From a virus, in the IMG/VR virus record IMGVR_UViG_3300032223_002716, positions 1 to 58,033 of that record: DNA of 58,033 bases. One strand, given 5' to 3'. The notes beneath the pieces are model-generated. The model had not been told where the DNA came from and ran no database searches. It was given only the letters and a program-made list of their open reading frames with translations. Positions 3,925-41,299 of this stretch are shown here, one piece after another; position 1 is the stretch's first letter, and the number at the start of each line of letters is the position of its first letter. The position numbers and the translations under genes are program-made.

Positions 3925-4452
3925 TTAATTATCAAACCAAAATACTATTCTTACATCATCTAAGTCACCCAATGTTTTTAGGTCTTCGATATGTTGAAAA
4001 AACATTCCAGATAAAAAATCATTAATAGGTAATACTTCACCTTCACCTTCTTCAGCTAATGCTGCACCATTCCAAACATTTGGGCTAGTTTGTTTTGTAA
4101 CTCTTCTATTCCAGAATTTTTGAGTATAATCAAACTCAGCAAGTTCTCTTAGATAGATATGTGATGGTGTATGGGCATCCCAACCCCAATAATCATATTC
4201 AGACTTCACAGTATCTGATATATCTTCTGGAATACCTCTAGGTTCAACTATTGGGTCAATGCAACTATAGTTTCTAACGCCAGCTAGAAATCCATACATA
4301 CCATAACCTCTCCAATCAAATGGATGGTCACCTTTCTCACGATTAAGATAATTTTTATCAAAATCATCCAATGTGGTAAAATCAAATACTTGTTCCCATT
4401 TACCAGTTTCTTTATTTCTTACTTCAGCATAAGAATGTATATCACAACCCAT
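3925..4452 (-). CDS. Conserved phage protein, 175 aa
   Basis: A protein starting MGCDIHSYAEVRN and rich in Trp and Tyr (FDWRGYGMYGFLAGVRNY, DYWGWDAHTPSHIYL). The 'MGCDIH' opening recurs in a phage protein family of unknown function. The conserved Cys, His and Asp residues near the start could bind metal, but this is speculation. It is the last larger gene before two very short ORFs. Confidence 0.6.
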   Translation of the reverse strand: MGCDIHSYAEVRNKETGKWEQVFDFTTLDDFDKNYLNREKGDHPFDWRGYGMYGFLAGVRNYSCIDPIVEPRGIPEDISDTVKSEYDYWGWDAHTPSHIYLRELAEFDYTQKFWNRRVTKQTSPNVWNGAALAEEGEGEVLPINDFLSGMFFQHIEDLKTLGDLDDVRIVFWFDN

Positions 4453-12991: not shown

Positions 12992-13010
12992 CTTTTTTAT
13001 AAAAAAATCG

Positions 13011-30012: not shown

Positions 30013-30582
30013 ATGAAAAAAATAATTTATGGGTTATTACTTATAACTCTAATCTCGTGTAAGAAAGAAGTAATAACTCCAGTTACACCCCCAGCAACTC
30101 AACAACTTGATAGTTTAAAGTTAGATGGTGAATTTGTTTTGGTTAGTGGTAAAATGTATATGGATTGTTTAGAAGATGGTAGTAAGATAGTTTATAATCA
30201 TTTTGATTCAATTAAATCTAGAAGTTCATTAAGATATGGTGGTTCTATAATCCCATTTGAAACTATCATAAAAGATACTACTACATGGTCATTTTATTTC
30301 CCTAAAATAGTACCAAATGTAGGTAAATTTGTATTAAATGAAGATACGTTAAACTCTTTAGGTTTAAATGTCACAGCACATAATCTAACCATAATAGAAT
30401 CACCAACAGCAACAACTGGTAGTACCCAATTAAATGGCTCGGCTAGACCGATAGATATTGTCTTATATGATGCTAAACTTAAATTAATTAAGATATATGT
30501 CCAAGAACAATATTTAAGTGTCGGTAATAGTAATTATAGAGCATTTAATGAATTAGTATTTAAACAAATTAAAGAATGGTAA
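30013..30582 (+). CDS. Lipoprotein, 189 aa
   Basis: MKKIIYGLLLITLISCKKEV is a lipoprotein signal with lipobox LISC; the following KKE pattern is typical of Bacteroidota surface or periplasmic lipoproteins. A Pro/Thr-rich linker (VTPVTPPATQQ) is followed by a beta-rich domain of about 150 residues without a recognised family. It has its own promoter and overlaps the next membrane gene by 7 nt. A superinfection-blocking or envelope function is possible. Confidence 0.75.
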   Translation: MKKIIYGLLLITLISCKKEVITPVTPPATQQLDSLKLDGEFVLVSGKMYMDCLEDGSKIVYNHFDSIKSRSSLRYGGSIIPFETIIKDTTTWSFYFPKIVPNVGKFVLNEDTLNSLGLNVTAHNLTIIESPTATTGSTQLNGSARPIDIVLYDAKLKLIKIYVQEQYLSVGNSNYRAFNELVFKQIKEW

Positions 30583-30719
30583 AGATAATATTAAACGCAG
30601 CAATAATATCGTTATTATACTTAACGTATAGAAGTATAAACACTCCAGATTTTACATTTAATTGTACAGTAAGTATAGTGTTTATTTGGTTTCTTAAAAT
30701 ATATGAGGAACGCACTTAA
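30576..30719 (+). CDS. Small membrane protein, 47 aa
   Basis: A 47-residue ORF with two hydrophobic segments (IILNAAIISLLYLTY and CTVSIVFIWFLKIY) and a charged end. Its ATG lies in the last codons of the lipoprotein gene (7-nt overlap), which supports translation. A holin-like role cannot be excluded but nothing specific shows it. Confidence 0.55.
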   Translation: MVKIILNAAIISLLYLTYRSINTPDFTFNCTVSIVFIWFLKIYEERT

Positions 30720-30723
30720 AACC

Positions 30724-30763
30724 CATATTAATATGGGGTCATCTCAACCCCCATATTAATATG
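30724..30763. terminator. Long bidirectional hairpin
   Basis: CATATTAATATGGGG and CCCCATATTAATATG form a stem of about 15 bp around a short loop. Each arm also contains its own palindrome (CATATTAATATG). It separates the plus-strand membrane gene from the minus-strand 31-aa ORF. Confidence 0.65.
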
Positions 30764-30770
30764 TTAATCT

Positions 30771-30866
30771 TTAAAACCCGAAATCAATAAGGTCTCCAAA
30801 ATCATCCCACTCATCAACTACTGGCGTATTTTGAGTGTCCTTCTCGATGTTTGAAAAATAATGCAT
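30771..30866 (-). CDS. Small acidic protein, 31 aa
   Basis: A short minus-strand ORF, MHYFSNIEKDTQNTPVVDEW then DDFGDLIDFGF. The acidic, hydrophobic C-terminus is reminiscent in style of short motifs by which phage proteins such as T4 gp33 and gp55 bind the sliding clamp, but the resemblance is loose. It is convergent with the plus-strand genes and bounded by the hairpin at 30724-30763. Confidence 0.4.
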   Translation of the reverse strand: MHYFSNIEKDTQNTPVVDEWDDFGDLIDFGF

Positions 30867-30936
30867 TTAAGTTATTTATATTAAAAAAAAAATTATTATA
30901 ATTATAAGTATAAGAAAAAAGTTAAAAAGTAAAATT

Positions 30937-31257
30937 ATGAGTGAAAATGAAATTCCAGAAGGTTTGTTAGATGCACAAATCACAGTATTAGATTTCTACG
31001 CTGAATGGTGTGGACCTTGCCGAAGCTTAATTCCAATTATTGATGAATTAACTGAAGAATATGCTAATGATAATAGCATCAAAATTATCAAGGTTAATGT
31101 TGATGTTCAACCAGCAATTGCTACTAAGTTTGGTGTTCGTAGCATCCCTAATGTTGTGTTCGTTAAAAACGGTGAAGTGGTAAATAAATTTACTGGTGTT
31201 AAAGCTAAGTCAGACATTAAAAATATTATTGAAGAAGTTAGGTCATCTAACAATTAA
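30937..31257 (+). CDS. trx: Thioredoxin
   Basis: A 106-residue thioredoxin with active site DFYAEWCGPCRSLIPII (WCGPC), a cis-Pro region RSIPNVVFVKNGE, and the normal length for the fold. Phage thioredoxins reduce ribonucleotide reductase or serve as polymerase cofactors; no RNR is in this window. The start is an ATG after an A-rich leader. Confidence 0.93.
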   Translation: MSENEIPEGLLDAQITVLDFYAEWCGPCRSLIPIIDELTEEYANDNSIKIIKVNVDVQPAIATKFGVRSIPNVVFVKNGEVVNKFTGVKAKSDIKNIIEEVRSSNN

Positions 31258-31260
31258 TAG

Positions 31261-31275
31261 ATATTTATATGTAAA
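31261..31275 (+). promoter_or_regulatory. Candidate late promoter motif, variant
   Basis: ATATTTATATGTAAA just after the thioredoxin stop and 10 nt before the next gene. It departs from the consensus in the second half. Confidence 0.35.
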
Positions 31276-31284
31276 GAATGATTA

Positions 31285-31608
31285 GTGATTAATAAAGAAA
31301 ACATAAGAAGTGCGTTGAGAGGTGTGTATGGAGATTTCAATACATATCTTGAGCATGAATATGAAGATACTGTCACTGAACATTTATATTTAGGTTCAAT
31401 CAATGATAAAAAGAAATGGGCCACTTACAACCAAGTAATTATTGAGTTAAAAAATAACTTAAAGGATATGTTGAAGGTTAAAGAATTACAATATAAATTA
31501 ACCGAAGATGTGGACCCAAACGATGTTTGTTTAGAAGTTTTAAGTGATTTAAAAACTAAAACACCAGAGTTAGAGAGGTTGTATTATAAAATTATGAATT
31601 TTAAATGA
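31285..31608 (+). CDS. Hypothetical protein, paralogue of 31726-32064
   Basis: A 107-residue helical protein that appears to use a GTG start, since an upstream ATG runs into a stop. Its pattern YGDFNTYLEHEY...KKWATYNQVIIELKN...YKLTEDVDPNDV parallels the next gene (YNNFITSTM...LRWETYSIIMDELLN...YRMTDGEDPNKV), so the two are diverged duplicates. Function unknown. It ends at a strong terminator. Confidence 0.6.
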   Translation: MINKENIRSALRGVYGDFNTYLEHEYEDTVTEHLYLGSINDKKKWATYNQVIIELKNNLKDMLKVKELQYKLTEDVDPNDVCLEVLSDLKTKTPELERLYYKIMNFK

Positions 31609-31617
31609 AAACACACT

Positions 31618-31641
31618 GAAAACCCCATTTTATGGGGTTTT
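31618..31641 (+). terminator. Rho-independent terminator
   Basis: AAAACCCCAT and ATGGGGTTTT form a 10-bp stem with a short TTT loop and a run of Ts. Confidence 0.88.
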
Positions 31642-31690
31642 TTTATTTAAAAAAATATTAAAGTTTTTGAGTCGAATACAGAATTTAAAG

Positions 31691-31705
31691 ATATTTATCA
31701 ATAAA
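31691..31705 (+). promoter_or_regulatory. Candidate late promoter motif
   Basis: ATATTTATCAATAAA follows the terminator at 31618-31641 and precedes the gene at 31726. Confidence 0.5.
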
Positions 31706-31725
31706 TAACAATAATAAATTAATTA

Positions 31726-32064
31726 ATGATGAAAGATTTTAATATTACAATCAAGGCTGGGACTGGAAAGTTTAATAATCTGGATAAGGAGTATAATAAT
31801 TTTATTACATCAACAATGGCTAACGTTGATGCTGAAACAAAATTAAGATGGGAAACATATAGTATCATCATGGATGAGCTATTAAATATTGATAGAATTG
31901 ATTGCTTTGAAGAAGCCAAATATAGAATGACTGATGGTGAGGACCCAAATAAAGTCATGATAGATATGATTGATAGAAATAAGAACGCTAGTGGTTTATT
32001 ATGGTTCATTAGAAAAAGATTACAAGAGTATATGGATGAAGATTTTTATAATAGATTTTTATAA
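31726..32064 (+). CDS. Hypothetical protein, paralogue of 31285-31608
   Basis: A 112-residue helical, charged protein with no recognised family. It shares a diverged pattern with the preceding gene (see there), including the FxxY(N)xF...DPNxV core. Two adjacent ATGs are possible starts. It is enclosed by a late-type motif and a terminator, so it is a single-gene unit. Confidence 0.6.
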   Translation: MMKDFNITIKAGTGKFNNLDKEYNNFITSTMANVDAETKLRWETYSIIMDELLNIDRIDCFEEAKYRMTDGEDPNKVMIDMIDRNKNASGLLWFIRKRLQEYMDEDFYNRFL

Positions 32065-32067
32065 GAA

Positions 32068-32096
32068 AAAGCACAGTTAACTCTGTGCTTTTTTTG
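32068..32096 (+). terminator. Rho-independent terminator
   Basis: AAAGCACAG and CTGTGCTTT form the stem around a TTAACT loop, with a T tail. Confidence 0.88.
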
Positions 32097-32160
32097 CTTT
32101 TATTACTATATTTGCATAAAATAAATAAACAATATATTTATTTTTATAAAACTATATATT

Positions 32161-32316
32161 ATGAGAGAATACGGTATGTTCGGTAGAGATGGTGAAGTTA
32201 TTTATAAAGTTAAATCTGAAAATATAATGGAAGCTATTAAACATTTTGCATTTATTAAACAAATGAATGTTGATATGTTATTAGAATTATTTGCAGTTAA
32301 AGAGGTAGTAAAATAA
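32161..32316 (+). CDS. Hypothetical protein, 51 aa
   Basis: A short ORF (MREYGMFGRDGEVIYKVKSE then helical ...LLELFAVKEVVK). It is preceded by a TATATTTG -7 element at 32107-32114 with only a weak -33 match (TGTG). Function unknown. Confidence 0.5.
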   Translation: MREYGMFGRDGEVIYKVKSENIMEAIKHFAFIKQMNVDMLLELFAVKEVVK

Positions 32317-32356
32317 ATTATTTTATCACCCAACTAGTCCTTTTTTAAATTATCAT

Positions 32357-32370
32357 ATATTTATTATTAT
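32357..32370 (+). promoter_or_regulatory. Candidate late promoter motif
   Basis: ATATTTATTATTAT, 31 nt before the gene at 32401. Confidence 0.4.
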
Positions 32371-32400
32371 AATATAAGATTTTTTAAAAAATATAAGGAC

Positions 32401-32589
32401 ATGTCAAAAAAAATTGTTAGAATTTCTGAAAACGAATTGGTTAACTTAATCGAGAACATCGTTAATGAAGCTGTAGCTGAGAAAAAAAATCAGTGGATTG
32501 CTGAGAGCGAAGAGAAAAAAGCAACTTTGTTAGAAAGTAAAGTAGCTAAATTAGAAGCTGTAATCGGTAAATTAACTAAAGGTAAATAA
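32401..32589 (+). CDS. Small helical protein, 62 aa
   Basis: MSKKIVRISENELVNLIENI followed by VNEAVAEKKNQWIAES and a coiled-coil end. The 'R(I/L)(S/T)ExEL..LI..IV.EA' opening is common in small phage proteins, and IVNE|A could be a variant prohead-protease site. It may be a head-associated or packaged peptide; this is inference. A terminator follows. Confidence 0.55.
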   Translation: MSKKIVRISENELVNLIENIVNEAVAEKKNQWIAESEEKKATLLESKVAKLEAVIGKLTKGK

Positions 32590-32610
32590 TTACCTTGCTA
32601 AATAACTAGA

Positions 32611-32648
32611 AGCTGGTAGCGTAAAAATACGTTACTGGCTCTTTTTTT
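32611..32648 (+). terminator. Rho-independent terminator with wobble pairs
   Basis: AGCTGGTAGCGT and ACGTTACTGGCT pair over 12 positions including G-T wobbles around an AAAAAT loop, followed by seven Ts. Confidence 0.7.
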
Positions 32649-32658
32649 ATGTAGTAAT

Positions 32659-33345
32659 ATGAAAGTTTTAGAAAAATTAAAAAGAAGTGAAACTCCTTTG
32701 ACTTCAGTTGTTGAACGTGATGAATTTATTACAGCAAGTGAAACAGCATTTGATTGTATCTTTGATGGTACATCAAAATTCCACCCATGGGAATTACCAA
32801 CTACATTACCTAAGAAATTTAAGATAGGTGTTATTGTAGGTTCAAGTGGTTCTGGGAAATCAACCTTACTTAAACATTTTGGAATTGAGGAACAACCTAC
32901 ATGGGATTCCAATAAATCAATCCTATCGCATTTTGCGACACCTGAAGAAGGAATCACTAGATTAAGTTCTGTAGGATTCAATACTATACCATCATGGTAT
33001 AAACCATATAACGTATTATCCAACGGAGAAAAATTCAGAGCTGATTTAGCTCGTAAGATAGCTTCAAATGCTGTTATAGATGAATATACCTCAGTAGTGG
33101 ATAGAAATGTCGCTAAAGCGGCCTCAATGGCCTTATCTCGATATATAAAAACCAATGACTTTGAAAACATTGTGATATCAACATGTCACATGGATATAGT
33201 CGATTGGTTGGAACCTGATTGGGTTATTAATACAGACACTGGGGAACTATTGGATGGTTTTTTTTTGTCCGACCAGAAATCAAAATTGAGTTATATCGCA
33301 CAAACTATGGCGGTTGGGACATGTTTAAAGAGCATCACTATTTAG
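32659..33345 (+). CDS. ABC-type ATPase half of an ATPase-acetyltransferase fusion
   Basis: A 228-residue ABC-like ATPase: Walker A VGSSGSGKSTLLKHF, signature-like NVLSNGEKFRADLARKI, and Walker B region ASNAVIDEYTSVVDRN with ISTCHMD following. In other phages I recall the product continuing after WVINTDTGEL into a GNAT acetyltransferase. Here the frame runs through a T9 tract (33258-33266) and ends 24 codons later, while the -1 frame continues as RPEIKIELYR... into the GNAT domain (33321-33737). The fusion would be restored by a -1 shift or by one extra T. Confidence 0.8.
   Translation: MKVLEKLKRSETPLTSVVERDEFITASETAFDCIFDGTSKFHPWELPTTLPKKFKIGVIVGSSGSGKSTLLKHFGIEEQPTWDSNKSILSHFATPEEGITRLSSVGFNTIPSWYKPYNVLSNGEKFRADLARKIASNAVIDEYTSVVDRNVAKAASMALSRYIKTNDFENIVISTCHMDIVDWLEPDWVINTDTGELLDGFFLSDQKSKLSYIAQTMAVGTCLKSITI
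33258..33266 (+). promoter_or_regulatory. T9 slippage or frameshift site
   Basis: Nine Ts preceded by GG. Zero frame reads GGT TTT TTT TTG; a -1 shift on T TTT TTT moves translation into the acetyltransferase frame without a stop. A homopolymer indel in the assembly would look identical. Confidence 0.55.
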
Positions 33346-33737
33346 ATGAGAAAATAAATAAAGCTGCTAGATGTTATATCGCAGTATGGGATGGTCAAGT
33401 GATTGGATTCAATGCAACATTATCAATGCCTAGTGGTTATATTAAAAATGCATGGAGAGGCCATAGAACAGTCATATTACCCGAGTTCCAAGGTTTAGGG
33501 TTGGGAGTTGCAATGTCAAATTTAATTGCTCAAATGTATATTGATGATGGTTGTAGGTATTACTCTAGAACAGCTCACCCAAGACTTGGTGCCTATAGAG
33601 ATAATTCTGATTTATGGAAACCAACTAGTAAAAATAAAAAATTACGTAATGATGTTAAACATGAAAATGTTTATAAACATCATTATGTTGATAATAAAAG
33701 AGTTTGTTTTTCACATGAATATATCGGTTTAAAGTAA
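33270..33737 (+). CDS. GNAT acetyltransferase half of the ATPase fusion
   Basis: Coordinates begin where the -1 frame becomes family-like (RPEIKIELYRTNYGGWDM); the first ATG in this frame is at 33321. The domain contains CYIAVWDGQVIGFNATLS and the acetyl-CoA loop region RTVILPEFQGLGLGVAMSNL, then RYYSRTAHPRLGAYR and WKPTSKNKKLR. It is probably made as a fusion with the ATPase, although an internal start at 33321 (MFKEHHYLDE) is possible. A second copy of its 3' part lies at 34637-34915 beyond the homing endonuclease gene. Confidence 0.75.
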   Translation, partial: RPEIKIELYRTNYGGWDMFKEHHYLDEKINKAARCYIAVWDGQVIGFNATLSMPSGYIKNAWRGHRTVILPEFQGLGLGVAMSNLIAQMYIDDGCRYYSRTAHPRLGAYRDNSDLWKPTSKNKKLRNDVKHENVYKHHYVDNKRVCFSHEYIGLK

Positions 33738-34601
33738 ATTATTTAATTTCTCAATAATAATTTCATCATACTTTATTATTAACAAATTAATTCGGTTATC
33801 AGTACAATATTTTCTTTTTATTTTATCATTAGTAATTGTTTTATTAAATCCTATGTCTCCACCAAAGACCTTGACTGGTAAGTAATGTTGTCTACCATTA
33901 AACTCAATACATAGATTGTAATCTGGTAAATAAAAGTCAAATGGTAGTGGTAAAATATTTCTACATTCTGTAAATCTATGTTGTGGGATAAAATTAATTT
34001 TATTTTTAATTAGATATTCACGTATTTTTTTCTCACCTTTTGATTCACGACACTTAGGACACCCACTACCATTTAAATGTGAATTCGGTGTCTGCATGAA
34101 TTCACCGTGTTCTGAACATATTATTTTAACTTTAGTACTATTATTAACATAGTTAACTAATGAATAATCATACTTATAGTTATGGACTAAATTTGCTTGT
34201 TCAATAAACTGATTAATCGTTTTTTTAGGTGTTCCAGAACATAAAAAACATTCTTTACCTGATAAATGAGCGTTTGGTGTTTGCATGAATTCACCGTGTT
34301 CTGGACATATTATTTTAACTTTAGTTGTTGAATTGGTAAATATAACATTTGAATAATCGTACTTGTCACCATGTATTTTTCTTGATTTTTTGATAAATAA
34401 TGGGTAATCAATTTTATGGCCACTACATTTTGGGCAAGTTTGTTTTCGATTAATATGTTTTCTGGGTTCTTGTTCAAACACACCATGTTCATGACATATT
34501 ATTTTAACTTTAGTTTCATTATTAATATAATTAACTAATGAATAATCATACTTATAGTTATGAGCTAAATTAGCTCGGTCAATAAAATTATTAGTTTTCA
34601 T
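33729..34601 (-). CDS. Homing endonuclease: zinc-finger repeats plus Vsr-like nuclease
   Basis: A 290-residue protein with three copies of a module of about 65 residues (HNYKYDYSLVNYINN, then TKVKIICHEHGVFEQEP and a CPKC or CFLC knuckle), which look like DNA-binding zinc repeats. A C-terminal nuclease domain, FDFYLPDYNLCIEFNGRQHY, resembles the Vsr-like/EDxHD homing nucleases of phages. It is inserted antisense in the acetyltransferase gene region, and a diverged duplicate of that gene's 3' end follows it. The ATG at 34601 is chosen because a late-type motif (34608-34623) lies immediately upstream. Confidence 0.82.
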   Translation of the reverse strand: MKTNNFIDRANLAHNYKYDYSLVNYINNETKVKIICHEHGVFEQEPRKHINRKQTCPKCSGHKIDYPLFIKKSRKIHGDKYDYSNVIFTNSTTKVKIICPEHGEFMQTPNAHLSGKECFLCSGTPKKTINQFIEQANLVHNYKYDYSLVNYVNNSTKVKIICSEHGEFMQTPNSHLNGSGCPKCRESKGEKKIREYLIKNKINFIPQHRFTECRNILPLPFDFYLPDYNLCIEFNGRQHYLPVKVFGGDIGFNKTITNDKIKRKYCTDNRINLLIIKYDEIIIEKLNNLL

Positions 34602-34607
34602 CTTGCT

Positions 34608-34623
34608 ATTTATTAATAAATAT
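34608..34623 (-). promoter_or_regulatory. Candidate late promoter motif
   Basis: ATATTTATTAATAAAT on the minus strand, 6 nt before the homing endonuclease ATG. It defines the likely right edge of the inserted cassette. Confidence 0.5.
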
Positions 34624-34636
34624 CTCAAAAAAGTTA

Positions 34637-34915
34637 AAAATACTACCAGATTTCCAAGGAATGGGTATTGGTCCTAGATTATCAGATATGATTGCTCAAA
34701 TGTATATCGATGATGGATGTAGATATTATTCTAGAACAGCACACCCAAGATTAATATCGTATAGACTTAATTCACCATTATGGAAACCAACTAGCAAACA
34801 TAAGAAGTTACGGAATGATGTTAAACATGAGAATGTTTATAAACAACATTATGCGGATAATAAAAGAGTTTGTGGAAGTTTTGAGTATATTGGAACTATT
34901 TCTTTGACTGATTAA
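34637..34915 (+). pseudogene. Orphan 3' fragment of the acetyltransferase gene
   Basis: The sequence reads KILPDFQGMGIGPRLSDMIA, then QMYIDDGCRYYSRTAHPRLI and WKPTSKHKKLRNDVKHENVY. It matches the end of the intact copy at about 33472-33737 nearly residue by residue, but it lacks the ATPase and the first half of the GNAT domain. The homology begins right after the homing endonuclease cassette. It is best read as the original gene end left behind when the element arrived with its own version of the 3' end. An internal ATG at 34661 exists, but a functional product is unlikely. Confidence 0.8.
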
Positions 34916-35579
34916 CTTTATTTTTAAGTCTCTCTTTCCAATAATCTTTTAATTTCTCTTCAACACCTTCAAGTTCTTCATAATAGTTTGGGAATTCAGC
35001 TAAATGGTCTGATGCAATTTCTTTTTGTTTCTCTTTATCGTCAGTATGTTCAGATTCAACCTTCATACCTTTTTTAAGTTGTTGTTTTAAATACTTTACA
35101 GTTACTCTGAACTTTTTTGCAATATCTTTAATTGTTTCGTTGTCAGCTTTACCACCTACCAATTTATTCTCATTGATTTCTTCTGGTTCCATAATTTCTT
35201 CTGGTTTTTTAATCTTTTTATTAATAATATTATACGCCAAAATAGGTATTGAACCACCTGGTAATAAAAATATAGCAGTTTGACCTAAAGTAACCGCAAA
35301 TTTAACTAACTCTTTCTTATCGTCTTTAGATAATTTTTCACCAGAAGTAAGTATTTTGTATACGTTTGATGCTTCAACTTTTTTATTATTTAAAAACTTT
35401 ATTAAAGAATCATATCCCTTCTCAATAGCATTTCTATTTGGTTCGACTGGTTCTTCACCTTCATTTACAACATTAGCATGTAGTGCTGCTAAATATCTTT
35501 TAACACTACCCTTGGTACAACCTACTTTTTTTCTACTGCCTTTTTTATATACGCATTTACCTCTACTTGTGTATGGCAT
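34896..35579 (-). CDS. DUF5661-containing protein
   Basis: A 227-residue basic protein. Residues 1-40 (SRGKCVYKKGSRKKVGCTKG, then VKRYLAALHANV) are a short module seen at the start of many phage head-region proteins. A hydrophobic segment follows at about 90-115. The C-terminal part contains KQQLKKGMKVESEHTDDKEK and IASDHLAEFPNYYEELE, the DUF5661 signature. Function unknown; a packaged or head-associated role would fit the late-type motif just upstream. The 3' end overlaps the acetyltransferase fragment by 20 nt. Confidence 0.7.
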   Translation of the reverse strand: MPYTSRGKCVYKKGSRKKVGCTKGSVKRYLAALHANVVNEGEEPVEPNRNAIEKGYDSLIKFLNNKKVEASNVYKILTSGEKLSKDDKKELVKFAVTLGQTAIFLLPGGSIPILAYNIINKKIKKPEEIMEPEEINENKLVGGKADNETIKDIAKKFRVTVKYLKQQLKKGMKVESEHTDDKEKQKEIASDHLAEFPNYYEELEGVEEKLKDYWKERLKNKVNQSKK

Positions 35580-35584
35580 AACTT

Positions 35585-35600
35585 TTTATTTAATAAATAT
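35585..35600 (-). promoter_or_regulatory. Candidate late promoter motif
   Basis: Minus-strand ATATTTATTAAATAAA, 5 nt before the DUF5661 gene's ATG at 35579. Confidence 0.5.
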
Positions 35601-35604
35601 AAAA

Positions 35605-35628
35605 AAAGCCTGAAAAAATTCAGGCTTT
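35605..35628 (-). terminator. Rho-independent terminator of the clp gene
   Basis: AAAGCCTGAA and TTCAGGCTTT form a 10-bp stem, followed on the minus strand by further Ts. It lies 7 nt after the ClpC-like stop. Confidence 0.88.
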
Positions 35629-35634
35629 AGTTAT

Positions 35635-38145
35635 TTAAGATAAAATAATTTTATCTTCTTTTTTATCGTATGTGATTTTAATAGTATCTCCTTCTTTAAA
35701 GTTACCATTAAGGATTTCATCAGTTACTGGGTCTTCAATGTATCTTTGAATTGCTCTAGTAAGTGGTCTAGCACCATATGCTTCATCATAACCTTGTTTA
35801 GCAACATAATCAACCGCTGATTTATTAATCTTGATATCAAAACCAATCTCTTTAACTCTAGCTTTTAATTTATCTAATTCGTTATGAATAATCACACTAA
35901 TATCTTCTGGTTTAAGACTGTTGAAGATAATAGTTTCATCAATACGGTTAAGGAACTCTGGTTTGAATTTCTTCTTTAATGCTTTCTCAATAATTGAACG
36001 AGCTTTCTCTTGTTCATTTACAATTGCAGCATCAGTTTCAAATCCAATATTCTTACCAAAACTTGTTAACTCTCTAACACCTACGTTTGAAGTCATAATG
36101 ATGATTGTATTCTTAAAGTTAACTTTACGACCTAAACCATCAGTTAAATGTCCTTCATCTAATACTTGAAGTAATAGGTTAAATACATCGTCATGACCTT
36201 TCTCAATCTCATCTAATAAGATAATTGAATATGGTTTTCTTCTAACTTTCTCAGTTAATTGTCCACCTTCTTCATAACCAACATATCCTGGTGGTGGACC
36301 AATCAATCTAGACACAGAATGTTTCTCCATGAACTCAGACATATCCACTCTAATCAATGCATCCTTATCACCATATACATATTCAGCTAATACTTTAGAT
36401 AAGTGAGTTTTACCAACACCAGTAGGTCCTAAGAATATAAATGATGATGGTTTGTTTTTATCTTTGATACCTAAACGACTACGTTTGATAGCTTTGGATA
36501 CTTTAACGATTGCATCATCTTGACCAATTACTTTACCAAGCAATTCTTTATCCATATTCATTAATCGTTTATTCTCTTGAGTTGAAATCTTATTTACTGG
36601 AATACCAGTCATCATAGATACAACGTCAGAAATTAAATCAACATCAACAATAGTTCTTTTCTCATCAAGATTTTTAACCCATTCTTCTTTAGCCTTAGCT
36701 AAATCAGTATCGATTTTTCTTTCCTCATCTCTTAACTTAGCGGCTTCTTCATATTTTTGTTTTGAAACAACATCCATTTTCTTAGTTTGAATATCAGCTT
36801 TCTTAGCTTCCAATGTTTTTATTTTTTCTGGAATCTCAACTTCAATATTTGTACTAGCGCCAGCTTCATCTAAAACATCGATAGCTTTATCTGGCATAGC
36901 TCTATCAGTGATATATCTATCAGATAATTTAACACACTCCTCAATAGCTTCATCAGTATAAGTAACCTTATGGTGATTTTCATATTTACCTCTAATACTT
37001 TTAAGCATAGTAATAGTTTCCTCTAAACTTGGTTCTTCAACCAATACTTGTTGGAACCGTCTAGTCAATGCACCATCTTTTTCTACGTTCTCTCTAAATT
37101 CGTCAAGTGTTGTAGCACCAATGATTTGTATTTCACCCCTAGCCAATGCTGGTTTGAAAATATTAGATGCATCTAAAGAGCCTGAGGAGTTTCCAGCACC
37201 AACAATGGTATGTAACTCATCAATGAACAAGATAACGTCTTTATTCGCTTTTAATTCATCTAATATTGCTTTCATACGTTCTTCGAATTGACCACGGTAT
37301 TTTGTACCAGCAACAATTGATGCTAAGTCTAAAGAATAGATTCTTTTTTCTAATAACATTCTAGGTGCTTTACCATCAACAATTAATTGAGCTAAACCTT
37401 CAATGATAGCTGTTTTACCAACTCCAGGTTCACCAATCAATACTGGGTTATTCTTTTTTCTTCTTGATAAGATTTGAGATACACGTTTAATCTCTTTCTC
37501 TCTACCAATAATAGGGTCAACATTACCCTCTTCTACAGCTTTAGTAACATCAGCACAGAAATTATCTAATACTGGTGTTTTACTTGCTTTACCACGTTTA
37601 ACTGTTGTTTTCTTTGATTTATCACCAAATTCTTCACCAAAAACGTTTTCATCGTCATCCCCTAACATATTCTTTGGGATATCCTTTTCATTTAGTTTAC
37701 CTTTCATATTAATTATAACTTTTTTAAAATTTTCGTAATTAATCCCAAAGCTAGTCAATATTTGAACAATACGCAACTTTTTATTGGTTAGAATTGATAA
37801 AGTGACATGTTCTAAATCTATATGGTTATCATTCAATAACTCTGATTCATTATCCACTTTATTCATTACCGCTTTCATTTCATCGCTGAATGGTAATCTA
37901 ATTCTTTTACTACCAGTAACACTAGGAGTTAAATTTATTTCTCTGATGTGCTCACTTAATTTATCGTGTAATACATTCACATCCGCACCTAATTTTTTAA
38001 ATGCGTTAACACAGATATTACTATCATCCAATAATATTGCAATCAAAATATGCTCAGGTCTAACAAGGACATCCTCATTACTTTTGGCTTCATTCATCGC
38101 ATTATTTATAATAAGTTTAACCTTAGGTACTATTTCTCTATTCAT
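35635..38145 (-). CDS. clpC: ClpC-like AAA+ unfoldase
   Basis: A full-length 836-residue Hsp100 protein: double Clp_N repeat (RPEHILIAILLDD, DLEHVTLSILTN), first AAA module with GEPGVGKT and a VILFIDELHTIVG Walker B, a UVR-like middle region (KQKYEEAAKLRDEERK), and second AAA module with GPTGVGKT, IILLDEIEK and a C-terminal ARPLTRAIQR sensor-2 helix. An IGF tripeptide in KNIGFETD lies where ClpC/ClpA carry the ClpP-docking loop, so it could use the host ClpP. No phage ClpP is nearby. It closely resembles Bacteroidota ClpC and was probably acquired from a host. Confidence 0.95.
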   Translation of the reverse strand: MNREIVPKVKLIINNAMNEAKSNEDVLVRPEHILIAILLDDSNICVNAFKKLGADVNVLHDKLSEHIREINLTPSVTGSKRIRLPFSDEMKAVMNKVDNESELLNDNHIDLEHVTLSILTNKKLRIVQILTSFGINYENFKKVIINMKGKLNEKDIPKNMLGDDDENVFGEEFGDKSKKTTVKRGKASKTPVLDNFCADVTKAVEEGNVDPIIGREKEIKRVSQILSRRKKNNPVLIGEPGVGKTAIIEGLAQLIVDGKAPRMLLEKRIYSLDLASIVAGTKYRGQFEERMKAILDELKANKDVILFIDELHTIVGAGNSSGSLDASNIFKPALARGEIQIIGATTLDEFRENVEKDGALTRRFQQVLVEEPSLEETITMLKSIRGKYENHHKVTYTDEAIEECVKLSDRYITDRAMPDKAIDVLDEAGASTNIEVEIPEKIKTLEAKKADIQTKKMDVVSKQKYEEAAKLRDEERKIDTDLAKAKEEWVKNLDEKRTIVDVDLISDVVSMMTGIPVNKISTQENKRLMNMDKELLGKVIGQDDAIVKVSKAIKRSRLGIKDKNKPSSFIFLGPTGVGKTHLSKVLAEYVYGDKDALIRVDMSEFMEKHSVSRLIGPPPGYVGYEEGGQLTEKVRRKPYSIILLDEIEKGHDDVFNLLLQVLDEGHLTDGLGRKVNFKNTIIIMTSNVGVRELTSFGKNIGFETDAAIVNEQEKARSIIEKALKKKFKPEFLNRIDETIIFNSLKPEDISVIIHNELDKLKARVKEIGFDIKINKSAVDYVAKQGYDEAYGARPLTRAIQRYIEDPVTDEILNGNFKEGDTIKITYDKKEDKIILS

Positions 38146-38163
38146 AAGACATTTTTATTTTTA

Positions 38164-38194
38164 CAAAATTAGTTATAATTACAAAAAAAATCAA
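38164..38194 (-). promoter_or_regulatory. Host-type promoter for the clpC-like gene
   Basis: Minus-strand TTGA, 19-bp spacer, TAATTTTG, 19 nt before the ATG at 38145. It is divergent from the plus-strand promoter at 38198-38228. Confidence 0.6.
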
Positions 38195-38197
38195 TAG

Positions 38198-38228
38198 TTG
38201 CTTTTAATTATAAATAGTACTATCTTTG
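38198..38228 (+). promoter_or_regulatory. Host-type promoter
   Basis: Plus-strand TTG, 20-bp spacer, TATCTTTG, 18 nt before the ATG at 38246. Confidence 0.7.
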
Positions 38229-38245
38229 TTGTAAAATTTTTAAAT

Positions 38246-38461
38246 ATGCAAGGAGCGCCAATTTTTGGAAAAGTAGAATTATGGGTTAAAAGCGGTAATG
38301 GCGTTTCTAAGTCCGAATACACTGATACTGGTATGGTTATTACTGGTAATTACTTAATAATCGTTGAGAATGAAACTGCTGATGCAGAGAATACTGTAAC
38401 TAGTACTGGTACATTATTTAATTTATCTGACGTTGTTAGGTATAAAACACATGCAAAATAA
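38246..38461 (+). CDS. Hypothetical beta-rich protein, 71 aa
   Basis: A small protein, MQGAPIFGKVELWVKSGNGV onward, with a beta-strand pattern and no recognised family. The ATG at 38246 is selected because the promoter's -7 element ends at 38228, leaving a short leader. It is followed by the KTSC-domain gene. Confidence 0.6.
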   Translation: MQGAPIFGKVELWVKSGNGVSKSEYTDTGMVITGNYLIIVENETADAENTVTSTGTLFNLSDVVRYKTHAK

Positions 38462-38480
38462 TAAATAATAAAATAAAGTT

Positions 38481-38909
38481 ATGATTTTAAAAAGAGTAGA
38501 AACAGATGATAAGGTTAAAGCCATTTATGAATCATCTAACATCTTGGCTTCAACATATGAACCAAGTAAAAAAGATTTAACTATTATCTTCAAAAGAGGA
38601 GCTAGTTATACTTATAAGAATGTAGATAAGACTGATTACTTCAGATTTGAAACAGCTGATAGCCAAGGCGAAGTTTTAAACAAACATATCAAAAAGTATG
38701 ATGCAGTTAAAAATGATGTAGTTGATGTCAAAAAAATTGAAGACGAGATACTTAATCTAAAAGAGGAAGAAATTAATAAGTATAAGGGAGAAGTTGTAGA
38801 CTACTTAAAAAATGTTGTTGAAACTTGGGATTTATCTGGTAAATTAAAATCAGACGATTTGGACCGAATCTTGATAATGAATAATAAATTAAAAGAATTA
38901 ATAAAGTAA
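38481..38909 (+). CDS. KTSC-domain protein
   Basis: A 142-residue protein. Its first 75 residues follow the KTSC pattern: IYESSNILASTYEPSKKDLT, FKRGASYTYKNV, and SQGEVLNKHIKKY. KTSC domains are small beta-barrels often fused to nucleic-acid enzymes and thought to bind a ligand or peptide. The C-terminal half is a charged helical extension. It shares a transcript with the YceI-like gene. Confidence 0.75.
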   Translation: MILKRVETDDKVKAIYESSNILASTYEPSKKDLTIIFKRGASYTYKNVDKTDYFRFETADSQGEVLNKHIKKYDAVKNDVVDVKKIEDEILNLKEEEINKYKGEVVDYLKNVVETWDLSGKLKSDDLDRILIMNNKLKELIK

Positions 38910-38913
38910 AATT

Positions 38914-39438
38914 ATGAGTACATTTAAAATTGACCCATTACACTCAGACATTGAGTTTAAGGTAAAACATTTAATGATTTCTACAGTTAATGGTAGATTC
39001 ACTAAATTTGACGCAACTATGGAATCTGAATTGGAAGATTTTACCGATGCGGTATTAACATTCGAAGCAGATGTTGATTCAATCACAACTAATATCGCTG
39101 ACAGAGATAATCACTTAAAATCTGATGATTTCTTTTCAGCTGATAAATTCCCTAAAATTACGTTTAAATCAACTGAAGTCATTAAATTATCTGAAGGTGA
39201 TTATACCATTAATGGGTTATTAACTATTCGTGATGTTGAGTTACCAATTGCATTAAAAGGTAGTTACAATGGTAATGATGTAGATGCTTACGGACAAACT
39301 AAATATGGTTTTGAATTAGAAGGTGTTATTAAGCGTTCTGAGTATGGTTTATCATTCAATGCTGTTGGTGAAAAAGGTGGTATTTTAGTATCAGATGATG
39401 TAAAATTGATTATCAGTATCCAAATGATGAAGGCATAA
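38914..39438 (+). CDS. YceI-family protein
   Basis: A 174-residue lipocalin-like beta-barrel of the YceI family: FKIDPLHSDIEFKVKHLMIS, GRFTKFDATM, DRDNHLKSDDFFSADKFPKI and YGFELEGVIKRSEYGLSF. YceI proteins bind isoprenoid or other lipophilic molecules. This one has no signal peptide, so it should be cytoplasmic, which is usual for Bacteroidota YceI-like proteins. Its purpose in a phage is unclear. A terminator follows. Confidence 0.88.
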   Translation: MSTFKIDPLHSDIEFKVKHLMISTVNGRFTKFDATMESELEDFTDAVLTFEADVDSITTNIADRDNHLKSDDFFSADKFPKITFKSTEVIKLSEGDYTINGLLTIRDVELPIALKGSYNGNDVDAYGQTKYGFELEGVIKRSEYGLSFNAVGEKGGILVSDDVKLIISIQMMKA

Positions 39439-39463
39439 CTAATAATTACATAAAAAAATCATG

Positions 39464-39490
39464 AACCCCTATGGATTTTCCTAGGGGTTT
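39464..39490 (+). terminator. Rho-independent terminator
   Basis: AACCCCTA and TAGGGGTT pair around a 10-nt loop, followed by TTGTATTTT. Confidence 0.8.
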
Positions 39491-39503
39491 TGTATTTTAT
39501 TAG

Positions 39504-39519
39504 ATATTTATTTAATAAA
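39504..39519 (+). promoter_or_regulatory. Candidate late promoter motif
   Basis: ATATTTATTTAATAAA, 8 nt before the histidine kinase gene and after a terminator. It suggests late expression of the kinase operon. Confidence 0.5.
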
Positions 39520-39526
39520 AGAAATT

Positions 39527-41299
39527 ATGTTCAACCTAAAGAGAAGTTCAGTAGTTAGTTTTATATTTGCAATTATATTTATGGTGATATTTTTAACCAT
39601 AAAATTGTGCGTATTAACTGGTTACATACCACCATGTGATTTAACTAGATGGATAGAATTTATCTGTTTCTTATTTTTCATACCTTTGTTTGGTGTTATG
39701 GTTAAAGATTACCTAACTAAGAATAAAGAATCTGTTAAATTAAATTATTATGCCAGAAATTTAAACGAAACATTAATTTCTCAAACACATAATCCATTAT
39801 TTTACGAAGGGGACATCACTGAAGGGGCTAAATTATTAACTAAAGAAGTTGTTAATAGTTTAAATATCGATAGATGTTCAATATGGTTGTATAACCATGA
39901 TAAAACTTCAATTATTTGTGAACAATTATATCTTAAGAAAGAGGATGTGTGGGTTCAAGATATTGAGATATTTGAGAAGGATTATAAGGAATATTTTGAC
40001 GCTATTAAAGTAGACCCTACAATTATTGCTGATGATGTATTTACACATCCAGCTACAGCATGTTTTACTGAAACATATGCAAAACCTTTAGGGATTAATT
40101 CTATGCTTGATGTACCAATTGTATATAGAGGTGAAGTTATTGGAGTTATTTGTAATGAAAGTTTTAACACCAAAGTTTGGCATAAGGTTGAAGTTAATTT
40201 TGCTGAGATGTTATCGTCATTATACGCATTCGCTTATTCAGTATGGGAGAATAAATTAACTGAAAATAAATTTAGTGATTTTGAATTATTCGTTGATGAA
40301 ACAGCATTAGTTACTAAAGCAGATAAAAATGGTAAAATTACATACGCTAATCAAAAATTTTTAGATATATGTGGTTGGTCGTTAGACGAAGTTATAGGTG
40401 CTGACCATAATATAGTTAATTCAAATACACACCCTAAAAAGTTTTGGAATAACATGTATAGAACAACAGTTAAGAAAAGAAAAATCTGGCATGAGATTGT
40501 AACTAATAAAAATAAAAAGGGTGAATTATATTATGTAGATACATACATTAAAGCTGAATTTGACCAAGAAACTGATGAATTAGTCGGATTTTTATCTATC
40601 AGACAAGATGTAACTGAATTATATGAATCGCTTAATGAAGTTAGTGAAAAGAATACGTATTTAGAGCACGCTGCGAAGATTCTAAGACACGATATGCATT
40701 CTGGAATAAATACATATATCCCAAGAGGAGTTAGTTCGTTAGAACGAAGATTAAAGCCAGAAGATATTGAACGTTTAAAATTAGAAGCACCTTTAAAAAT
40801 GCTTAAAGAAGGTCTTAAGCATACTCAGAAAGTTTACAAAGGTGTATATGAATTTACAAATCTAGTTAAAAAAGATACTGTAATAACTAAAGAACCATTA
40901 AAACTTAAAAAAATATTAGATAATTATTTAAAATCAACAGCTTATTCAAGTCAAGTTGCTATCGATGTATTACCAGAACTTGAAGTAAATGAATCTTTAT
41001 TCTGTACAGCGGTTGATAACTTAATTAGAAACGGATTAAAATATAATGATTCTGAACATAAATTGGTGGCTATATTTATGGAAGACGAGAATCACATTGC
41101 GATACAAGATAACGGTAGAGGTATGACTCAAGAGGAATTTAATAAATTATCTCAACCATACACTCGAAAAGCAAACCAGAAGGAGAGTGGTTCTGGATTG
41201 GGGTTAAACATATGTATAGCGATACTTAAAGAGCATGGGTTCAAAATTTCTTGTGAGAAAAACGAGGTTGGAACCAAACTATTAATAACAATTAAATAA
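39527..41299 (+). CDS. Membrane sensor histidine kinase (GAF-PAS)
   Basis: A 590-residue kinase. Two transmembrane segments (about 9-31 and 43-60) are followed by a GAF domain (about 90-240), a PAS domain with KITYANQKFLDICGWS (about 255-370), a phosphoacceptor helix KILRHDMHSG (His388) and a HATPase_c domain: N box NLIRNGLKYND, G1 DNGRGM, G2 SGSGLGLNI. All catalytic boxes are intact, so it should autophosphorylate. A single-domain response regulator gene follows after 38 nt. Complete two-component systems are rare in phages; the signal is unknown. It resembles cyanobacterial and Bacteroidota GAF/PAS kinases in architecture. Confidence 0.9.
   Translation: MFNLKRSSVVSFIFAIIFMVIFLTIKLCVLTGYIPPCDLTRWIEFICFLFFIPLFGVMVKDYLTKNKESVKLNYYARNLNETLISQTHNPLFYEGDITEGAKLLTKEVVNSLNIDRCSIWLYNHDKTSIICEQLYLKKEDVWVQDIEIFEKDYKEYFDAIKVDPTIIADDVFTHPATACFTETYAKPLGINSMLDVPIVYRGEVIGVICNESFNTKVWHKVEVNFAEMLSSLYAFAYSVWENKLTENKFSDFELFVDETALVTKADKNGKITYANQKFLDICGWSLDEVIGADHNIVNSNTHPKKFWNNMYRTTVKKRKIWHEIVTNKNKKGELYYVDTYIKAEFDQETDELVGFLSIRQDVTELYESLNEVSEKNTYLEHAAKILRHDMHSGINTYIPRGVSSLERRLKPEDIERLKLEAPLKMLKEGLKHTQKVYKGVYEFTNLVKKDTVITKEPLKLKKILDNYLKSTAYSSQVAIDVLPELEVNESLFCTAVDNLIRNGLKYNDSEHKLVAIFMEDENHIAIQDNGRGMTQEEFNKLSQPYTRKANQKESGSGLGLNICIAILKEHGFKISCEKNEVGTKLLITIK

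Follow-up and report, generated by a model that had tools for sequence, protein, structure and literature searches.

How does a nuclease gene come to lie between two diverged copies of the end of one phage gene, and which of the two copies is the original? The question is raised by a locus in the window analysed here, a virus record of 58,033 bases (IMGVR_UViG_3300032223_002716) with terminase, portal and endolysin genes. The target gene begins with an ABC-type ATPase half in frame 0 (32659-33345, + strand; Pfam ABC_tran, 1.6e-6), whose ORF matches positions 36-194 of the 357-position profile phrog_11143 at 4.9e-61, and continues with a GNAT acetyltransferase half in the -1 frame relative to the ABC ORF (33261-33737, +). 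Both halves match this single PHROG family. The preliminary description had taken the acetyltransferase for a complete gene; its end at 33261-33737 is intact, but it is actually the C-terminal half of an ABC-ATPase/GNAT protein. The second, diverged GNAT 3ʹ end claimed beyond a minus-strand gene was confirmed at 34640-34915 (+), where it begins codon-exactly at ILPDFQG, is open as a small ORF (34661-34915) and also matches phrog_11143 (PHROG profile search, E 1e-11). The duplication, described before as the last ~90 codons, is real, and its length was corrected to 87-91 codons. The sequence ILPDFQGMGIG is presumably the acetyl-CoA-binding loop of the GNAT fold, a conserved stretch typical of homing-enzyme targets.

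At the ABC/GNAT frame change (-1), there is a run of nine T residues (33258-33266, +) that is conserved in relatives. The sequence GG-T9-G[TC]CC is kept in nearly all closer relatives (L002-L061), with GNAT always in the -1 frame, and T10 with a single continuous ABC-GNAT frame occurs in two lineages (L031/L032/L060/L061 and L058). The run looks like a site of programmed frameshifting or transcriptional slippage that would yield an ABC-GNAT fusion.

The gene between the two ends (33729-34601, - strand; phrog_559, 5.5e-81) encodes an endonuclease with three treble-clef zinc modules (DUF4379/DUF723) and a Vsr-like nuclease domain (residues ~186-290). Its start is the ATG at 34601, and the ORF reaches a TTG at 34628. 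A sequence search for solved relatives of the nuclease gave none, and fold comparison alone pointed to Vsr/I-Bth0305I. When the AlphaFold model (pLDDT 89.5) was compared with known structures, residues 186-290 matched Vsr (1cw0) with a Z of 10.7 and an rmsd of 2.7 over 99 residues, and the homing endonuclease I-Bth0305I (3r3p) with a Z of 10.6 and an rmsd of 2.5 over 87, and the domain is predicted from this model to have a Vsr/I-Bth0305I-type fold. In an alignment of 21 sequences, the Cys/His residues of the zinc modules were invariant, and E190, D222, E233, Q238, H239, D259 and K262 were conserved, a set of alignment positions that may include the EDxHD catalytic residues. The earlier reading of a minus-strand zinc-repeat/Vsr-like endonuclease gene is borne out by the DUF4379/DUF723 modules, the phrog_559 match and the Vsr fold match. 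Within the gene, the zinc-module stretches 34103-34215 and 34481-34593 share 85.8% DNA identity, which suggests a recent module duplication.

An empty site was found in the relative L002 (IMGVR_UViG_3300042562_002373), which has a single GNAT end without a nuclease and is the single empty-site relative for the window's own insertion. L002 and the window are colinear over ~12 kb around the locus at an identity of ~88-90%. Window 30574-33707 corresponds to L002 2313-5447, and window 34639-39875 to L002 5213-10468, with L002 5213-5447 matched twice by the window. The ABC part is 96.8% identical to L002, ClpB 96.0%, and the resident GNAT sequence 5ʹ of the insertion point (33261-33473, +; L002 5001-5213) 92.5%. 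The present gene end (33474-33737, +; the last 87 codons) is 79.7% identical to L002, versus 94.5% to the intact L002 gene for the copy beyond the nuclease (34640-34915, +; Fisher p 2e-7). Upon likelihood analysis of the divergence from L002, the best change point was at 33461, with 33449-33473 within 2 log units; there were 12 mismatches in the 200 bases ahead of the change point and 57 in the 274 beyond it. The left junction of the element was placed by this change point at 33449-33474 (+), with the ILP codon at 33474. As the remnant is 94.5% and the current end 79.7% identical to L002, and as the change point lies beside the ILP codon, the copy on the far side of the nuclease is the native end, and the end now in use is the later arrival. 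A comparison with element-free relatives, proposed in the preliminary description, thereby turned up a phage whose gene end fits the remnant and not the current end. The insertion point suggested there around ILP(E/D)FQG proved codon-exact and recurs in two other phages, and the footprint that had been read from the locus, an imported 3ʹ end that displaced the resident one and left it as a fragment, was upheld by the L002 identities together with the dS values.

Aligning the two copies, as had also been proposed, dates them to far before the split from L002. The carried tail (33474-33734) and the remnant (34640-34912) are 77.8% identical over 261 aligned bases, with a dS of 0.91 (95% CI 0.51-1.68). 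Compared with L002, dS was 0.73 (0.42-1.26) for the carried tail, 0.24 for the remnant, 0.13 for ABC and 0.18 for ClpB. Since the dS between tail and remnant is well above that between the neighbouring genes and L002, the copies split before the two phages did; and since the copies are older than the window/L002 split, yet L002 has one copy, the tail was imported. The candidate explanation of a duplication within this lineage was excluded by the dS of 0.91 between tail and remnant versus 0.13-0.18 for the neighbour genes. The carried tail is under purifying selection (omega 0.21-0.27; 0.27 versus L002), and the omega of the remnant versus L002 is 0.08, a low value that suggests its recent displacement. 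In the tree, the window tail is nearest to L002 plus the remnant (97/99) on a long branch, which points to an unsampled cousin as the donor and to no identified phage.

An Rfam scan of 32000-36000 at E values up to 1 gave no intron family. An intron or intein in the window was ruled out by this result, by the coding tail (omega 0.2-0.3) and by the nuclease being a separate ORF. In L055/L056 (L056 3280-4356), an in-frame intein-like insert with the LAGLIDADG-like motif LLAGLLDTDGS splits the ABC P-loop (GASG|..|SGKST), indicating that a second kind of homing element attacks the same target gene.

Relatives were then gathered by means of the GNAT sequence; among them, L017 is the same phage as L018 from a second sample. 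The order of gene, convergent nuclease and gene-end remnant was found in four other phages (L018, L029, L030 and L070), which hold five further insertions, two of them in L029, at two codon-exact sites. The element is sporadic among otherwise colinear relatives: it is missing from L002 and from ~35 other distinct relatives, which have one gene end and no nuclease. None of these ~35 has both gene ends without a nuclease, the very case that the preliminary description had named as speaking against it. The insertions fall into two families. In family 1 (window, L029 and L030), the nuclease has three zinc modules and the remnants begin at the ILP codon, while in family 2 (L018, L029 and L070), it has two zinc modules and the His codon of HPR[MI]G is where the remnants start. 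The endonucleases of L018, L029, L030 and L070 are 52-61% identical in amino acids to that of the window, and still the codon at which the remnant begins is identical within each family.

The L029 locus has two stacked insertions, one of each family. Its innermost remnant (HPRMGMYRERS..CFSHEYVG) is the native end, the next one (ILPDYQG..HPRMIWYREHS..CGSFEYIG) is the family-2 tail that was later displaced by a family-1 element, and the gene now ends in the tail of the family-1 element. Between L018 and L029, the family-2 tails are 88.7%, the nucleases 79% and the ABC parts 71.8% identical. The two family-2 tails are sisters (100/98), and the 5ʹ parts of the genes reject a single clade (AU p 0.0025); together with the identities, these trees show that the tail travels with the nuclease between lineages. 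The family-1 tails of L029 and L030 are likewise sisters (95/93), with their 5ʹ parts apart in the best tree, a difference that is non-significant (p 0.15).

Across L002-L071, the GNAT C-termini are of two discrete types, TSKH..CGSFEYIG and TSKN..CFSHEYIG, which are scattered among the phages, nuclease-free ones included. In the window, the two types are placed in reverse of the other element-bearing phages. The scattered types are possibly the scars of lost elements.

We further compared the flanks of 146 loci with nucleases of the same family, together with two controls in which the flanks were permuted. A protein-level repeat bridging the nuclease was present at 26 of the 146 loci (15 at at least 30 bits), versus one in each of the two controls. 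Six of the 15 loci at that level (L146, L175, L176, L192, L194 and L217) look like nuclease-gene pairs instead of target duplications and were left out of the count, leaving nine at at least 30 bits, the GNAT cases included. In L078 (duplicate L077), the remnant starts at VFIERG, and there are three empty-site relatives (L235, L236 and L238); Pfam gives no family for the target gene, and our guess from its neighbours is a virion protein. The footprint lies in PRPP synthetase in L177 and in PhoH in L210/L211, two cases for which scans for empty-site relatives gave only the same phages. In L208, a helicase remnant is fused in frame to the C-terminus of the nuclease, and in L109, a 5ʹ-3ʹ exonuclease has its 5ʹ end duplicated instead of its 3ʹ end. 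Weaker cases are L098 (a glycosyltransferase whose remnant has become joined to the end of the nuclease) and the 5ʹ-end versions L073 and L140. The order of gene core, foreign end, endonuclease and native end, seen in the window, L018, L029, L030 and L070, also occurs in L078, L177 and L210.

In L208 (3923-5221), L098 (4001-5323) and L073 (3950-5068), the nuclease has, as its C- or N-terminus, the end of the invaded gene in frame, so that the displaced gene end is now part of the nuclease. Named phage records supplied 16 nuclease loci of the same family, of which L248 (Prevotella phage Lak-B4) has a substantial target duplication and the other 15 have no clear one. In L248, an ABC ATPase piece is repeated across the nuclease (2307-2642 and 3960-4283) at 38% identity, and the repeat could stem from an old insertion of the end-carrying kind or from a tandem pair. 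One possible case in 16 indicates that end-carrying is a minority configuration in this nuclease family.

Very probably, the foreign tail, the native remnant, the empty-site relative, the exact junctions, the stacked insertions and the horizontal movement of tail plus endonuclease, all seen in the sequences, are the work of a free-standing homing element that resides at its own target within a coding sequence and, in place of splicing, provides the gene with a new end. The comparative data indicate that elements of this class have arrived repeatedly and in several target genes, and that the window is no isolated oddity. The body of the element would consist of a variant copy of the target's 3ʹ end, reaching from the codon at the cut site as far as the stop, and the endonuclease gene, here convergent and with its own promoter-like motif. 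When two phages infect together, the endonuclease would cut the intact target gene of the element-free partner at the codons of the acetyl-CoA loop, ILPDFQG, and the codon-exact junctions suggest such site-specific cleavage there. In the recombination that follows with the gene carrying the element, the shared 5ʹ part would pair with the left broken end and the remnant, which starts exactly at the cut, with the right one, and repair would copy the tail and the endonuclease in between. The recipient would keep a full-length hybrid gene, with its own gene end stranded as a remnant beyond the endonuclease. The target site is now split; the filled gene would no longer be a substrate, and the carried tail is expected to be self-immune. 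In the first 99 bases of the tail, 12 of 23 mismatches in the window, 11 of 23 in L029 and 3 of 16 in L030 fall within the 36 bases nearest the junction (baseline share 0.275), and family 2 has no such enrichment of tail mismatches beside the junction. Support from sequence for recoding of the tail as self-immunity is mixed, being clear in two of the three family-1 elements and absent in the third.

Could the nuclease instead be an ordinary intergenic endonuclease with a distant cut, which co-converted the 3ʹ end and left the remnant when the right side was joined imprecisely on a single occasion, an accident then inherited vertically, with no standing tail-containing unit? Classical phage free-standing endonucleases occupy intergenic positions and cleave hundreds or thousands of bases off (PMC2988022), co-conversion would yield a foreign tail, the lack of a clear duplication at 15 of the 16 loci from named phages fits, and the very first event in each family was probably of this sort. 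However, that the remnants of diverged elements begin at the identical codon is unexpected from repeated imprecise joins, the tail and nuclease moved jointly between lineages, and L029 has two insertions at two sites; we consider this account unlikely.

Two further explanations deal with the pair of gene ends itself. If the gene end had been duplicated in tandem in this lineage, with the endonuclease later inserted between the copies and one copy diverging fast, the placement of the window tail nearest the L002/remnant pair and its high nonsynonymous divergence would be accounted for; but the two copies are 4-7 times as far apart in dS as the window and L002 are, L002 is single-copy, no relative has both copies without the nuclease, and the carried tails of L018/L029 conflict with the host phylogeny, which makes such a history highly improbable. 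The remnant might also be an alternative C-terminus, swapped in by recombination or splicing with the endonuclease serving the switch, as the two discrete tail types across relatives and their reversal in the window could suggest. Against this stand the lack of an intron RNA in Rfam, the single tail in ~35 distinct relatives, the family-2 remnants, which at 50-odd codons are short and could not be expressed as gene ends by themselves, and the same footprint in unrelated target genes; we give this idea very little credence.

A homing element carrying a gene end has a counterpart in the mobile ORFs (mORFs) of fungal mitochondria, known from Allomyces atp6 and Glomus atp6/atp9/cox2/nad3, in which the native end is 91-98% identical to a close relative and the inserted end 64-81% (PMC3630166). 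The window shares with them the arrangement of gene core, foreign carboxy-terminal end, endonuclease and displaced native end, the invaded gene that is kept working, and a native end that matches an empty-site close relative while the foreign end does not. The mORFs differ in having LAGLIDADG or GIY-YIG enzymes, several of them in phase with the gene, and in residing in organelles, whereas the window element has a Vsr-like enzyme with zinc modules, is convergent and belongs to tailed phages, and the phage elements have several unrelated target genes and 5ʹ-end versions. In its mode of action the window element resembles an mORF; by descent it stands outside the fungal family, its nuclease being neither LAGLIDADG nor GIY-YIG. 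Free-standing phage endonucleases of the T4 Seg/Mob type, which perform intronless homing, are intergenic with distant cut sites (PMC2988022). They resemble the window element in lying outside any intron or intein, in sporadic presence among relatives, in their position beside conserved genes and in flank co-conversion, but the window element is inside coding sequence at its putative cut site (ILPDFQG) and brings a replacement gene end.

With I-Bth0305I, which is listed among group I intron enzymes (PMC3943268), and with EDxHD and Vsr proteins, the window enzyme shares the nuclease fold of residues 186-290 and a long modular DNA-binding region, but it has zinc treble-clef repeats instead of the I-Bth0305I binding region and no intron. 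The phrog_559/DUF723-DUF4379 phage nucleases, among them those of Barth et al. 2023 (PMC10448857), have the same zinc modules and recombining repeat modules, but in the enzymes of that paper the modules are paired with T5orf172 (GIY-YIG) domains; searched for duplicated, truncated or remnant ends, the paper gave no description of carried gene ends. The open-licence literature searched gave no phage report of carried gene ends, with priority not certain, and as far as found it describes end-carrying homing only from fungal mitochondria. New here are the phage hosts, the nuclease type, the convergent orientation, the several target genes and the use of both gene ends.

We regard as evenly balanced the wider proposition that, next to introns and inteins, end-carrying homing gives phage endonucleases a third general route into conserved coding sequence, one that this nuclease family applies to many unrelated genes and to either the 3ʹ or the 5ʹ end, that sometimes fuses the remnant to the nuclease, and that through repeated rounds makes and maintains the two ABC/GNAT end types. 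If true, the swapping of C-terminal alleles in phage genes would be driven by selfish elements. The usual picture of a free-standing phage endonuclease is of an intergenic gene whose product cuts elsewhere, and here one would sit at its own site in a conserved motif without splicing, which would tie phage biology to a mechanism known from fungal mitochondria. Duplicated gene ends and mosaic C-termini, puzzling when met in phage genomes, would be accounted for by such elements, which where unrecognised would mislead gene trees and annotation. The proposal lends itself to direct testing, with the enzyme and both states of the site, empty and filled, known at codon precision.

The right end of the element includes an AT-rich, promoter-like motif just upstream of the endonuclease start (34610-34624, -), which is present in the same position in all six GNAT-targeted elements. 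The motif TTWATAATAAATATC (or its complement) has 20 sites in the window versus 5.4 expected, about fourfold above chance. Sites such as those at 13010, 31690, 42998 and 53339 are near gene starts, and the motif is a candidate phage promoter.
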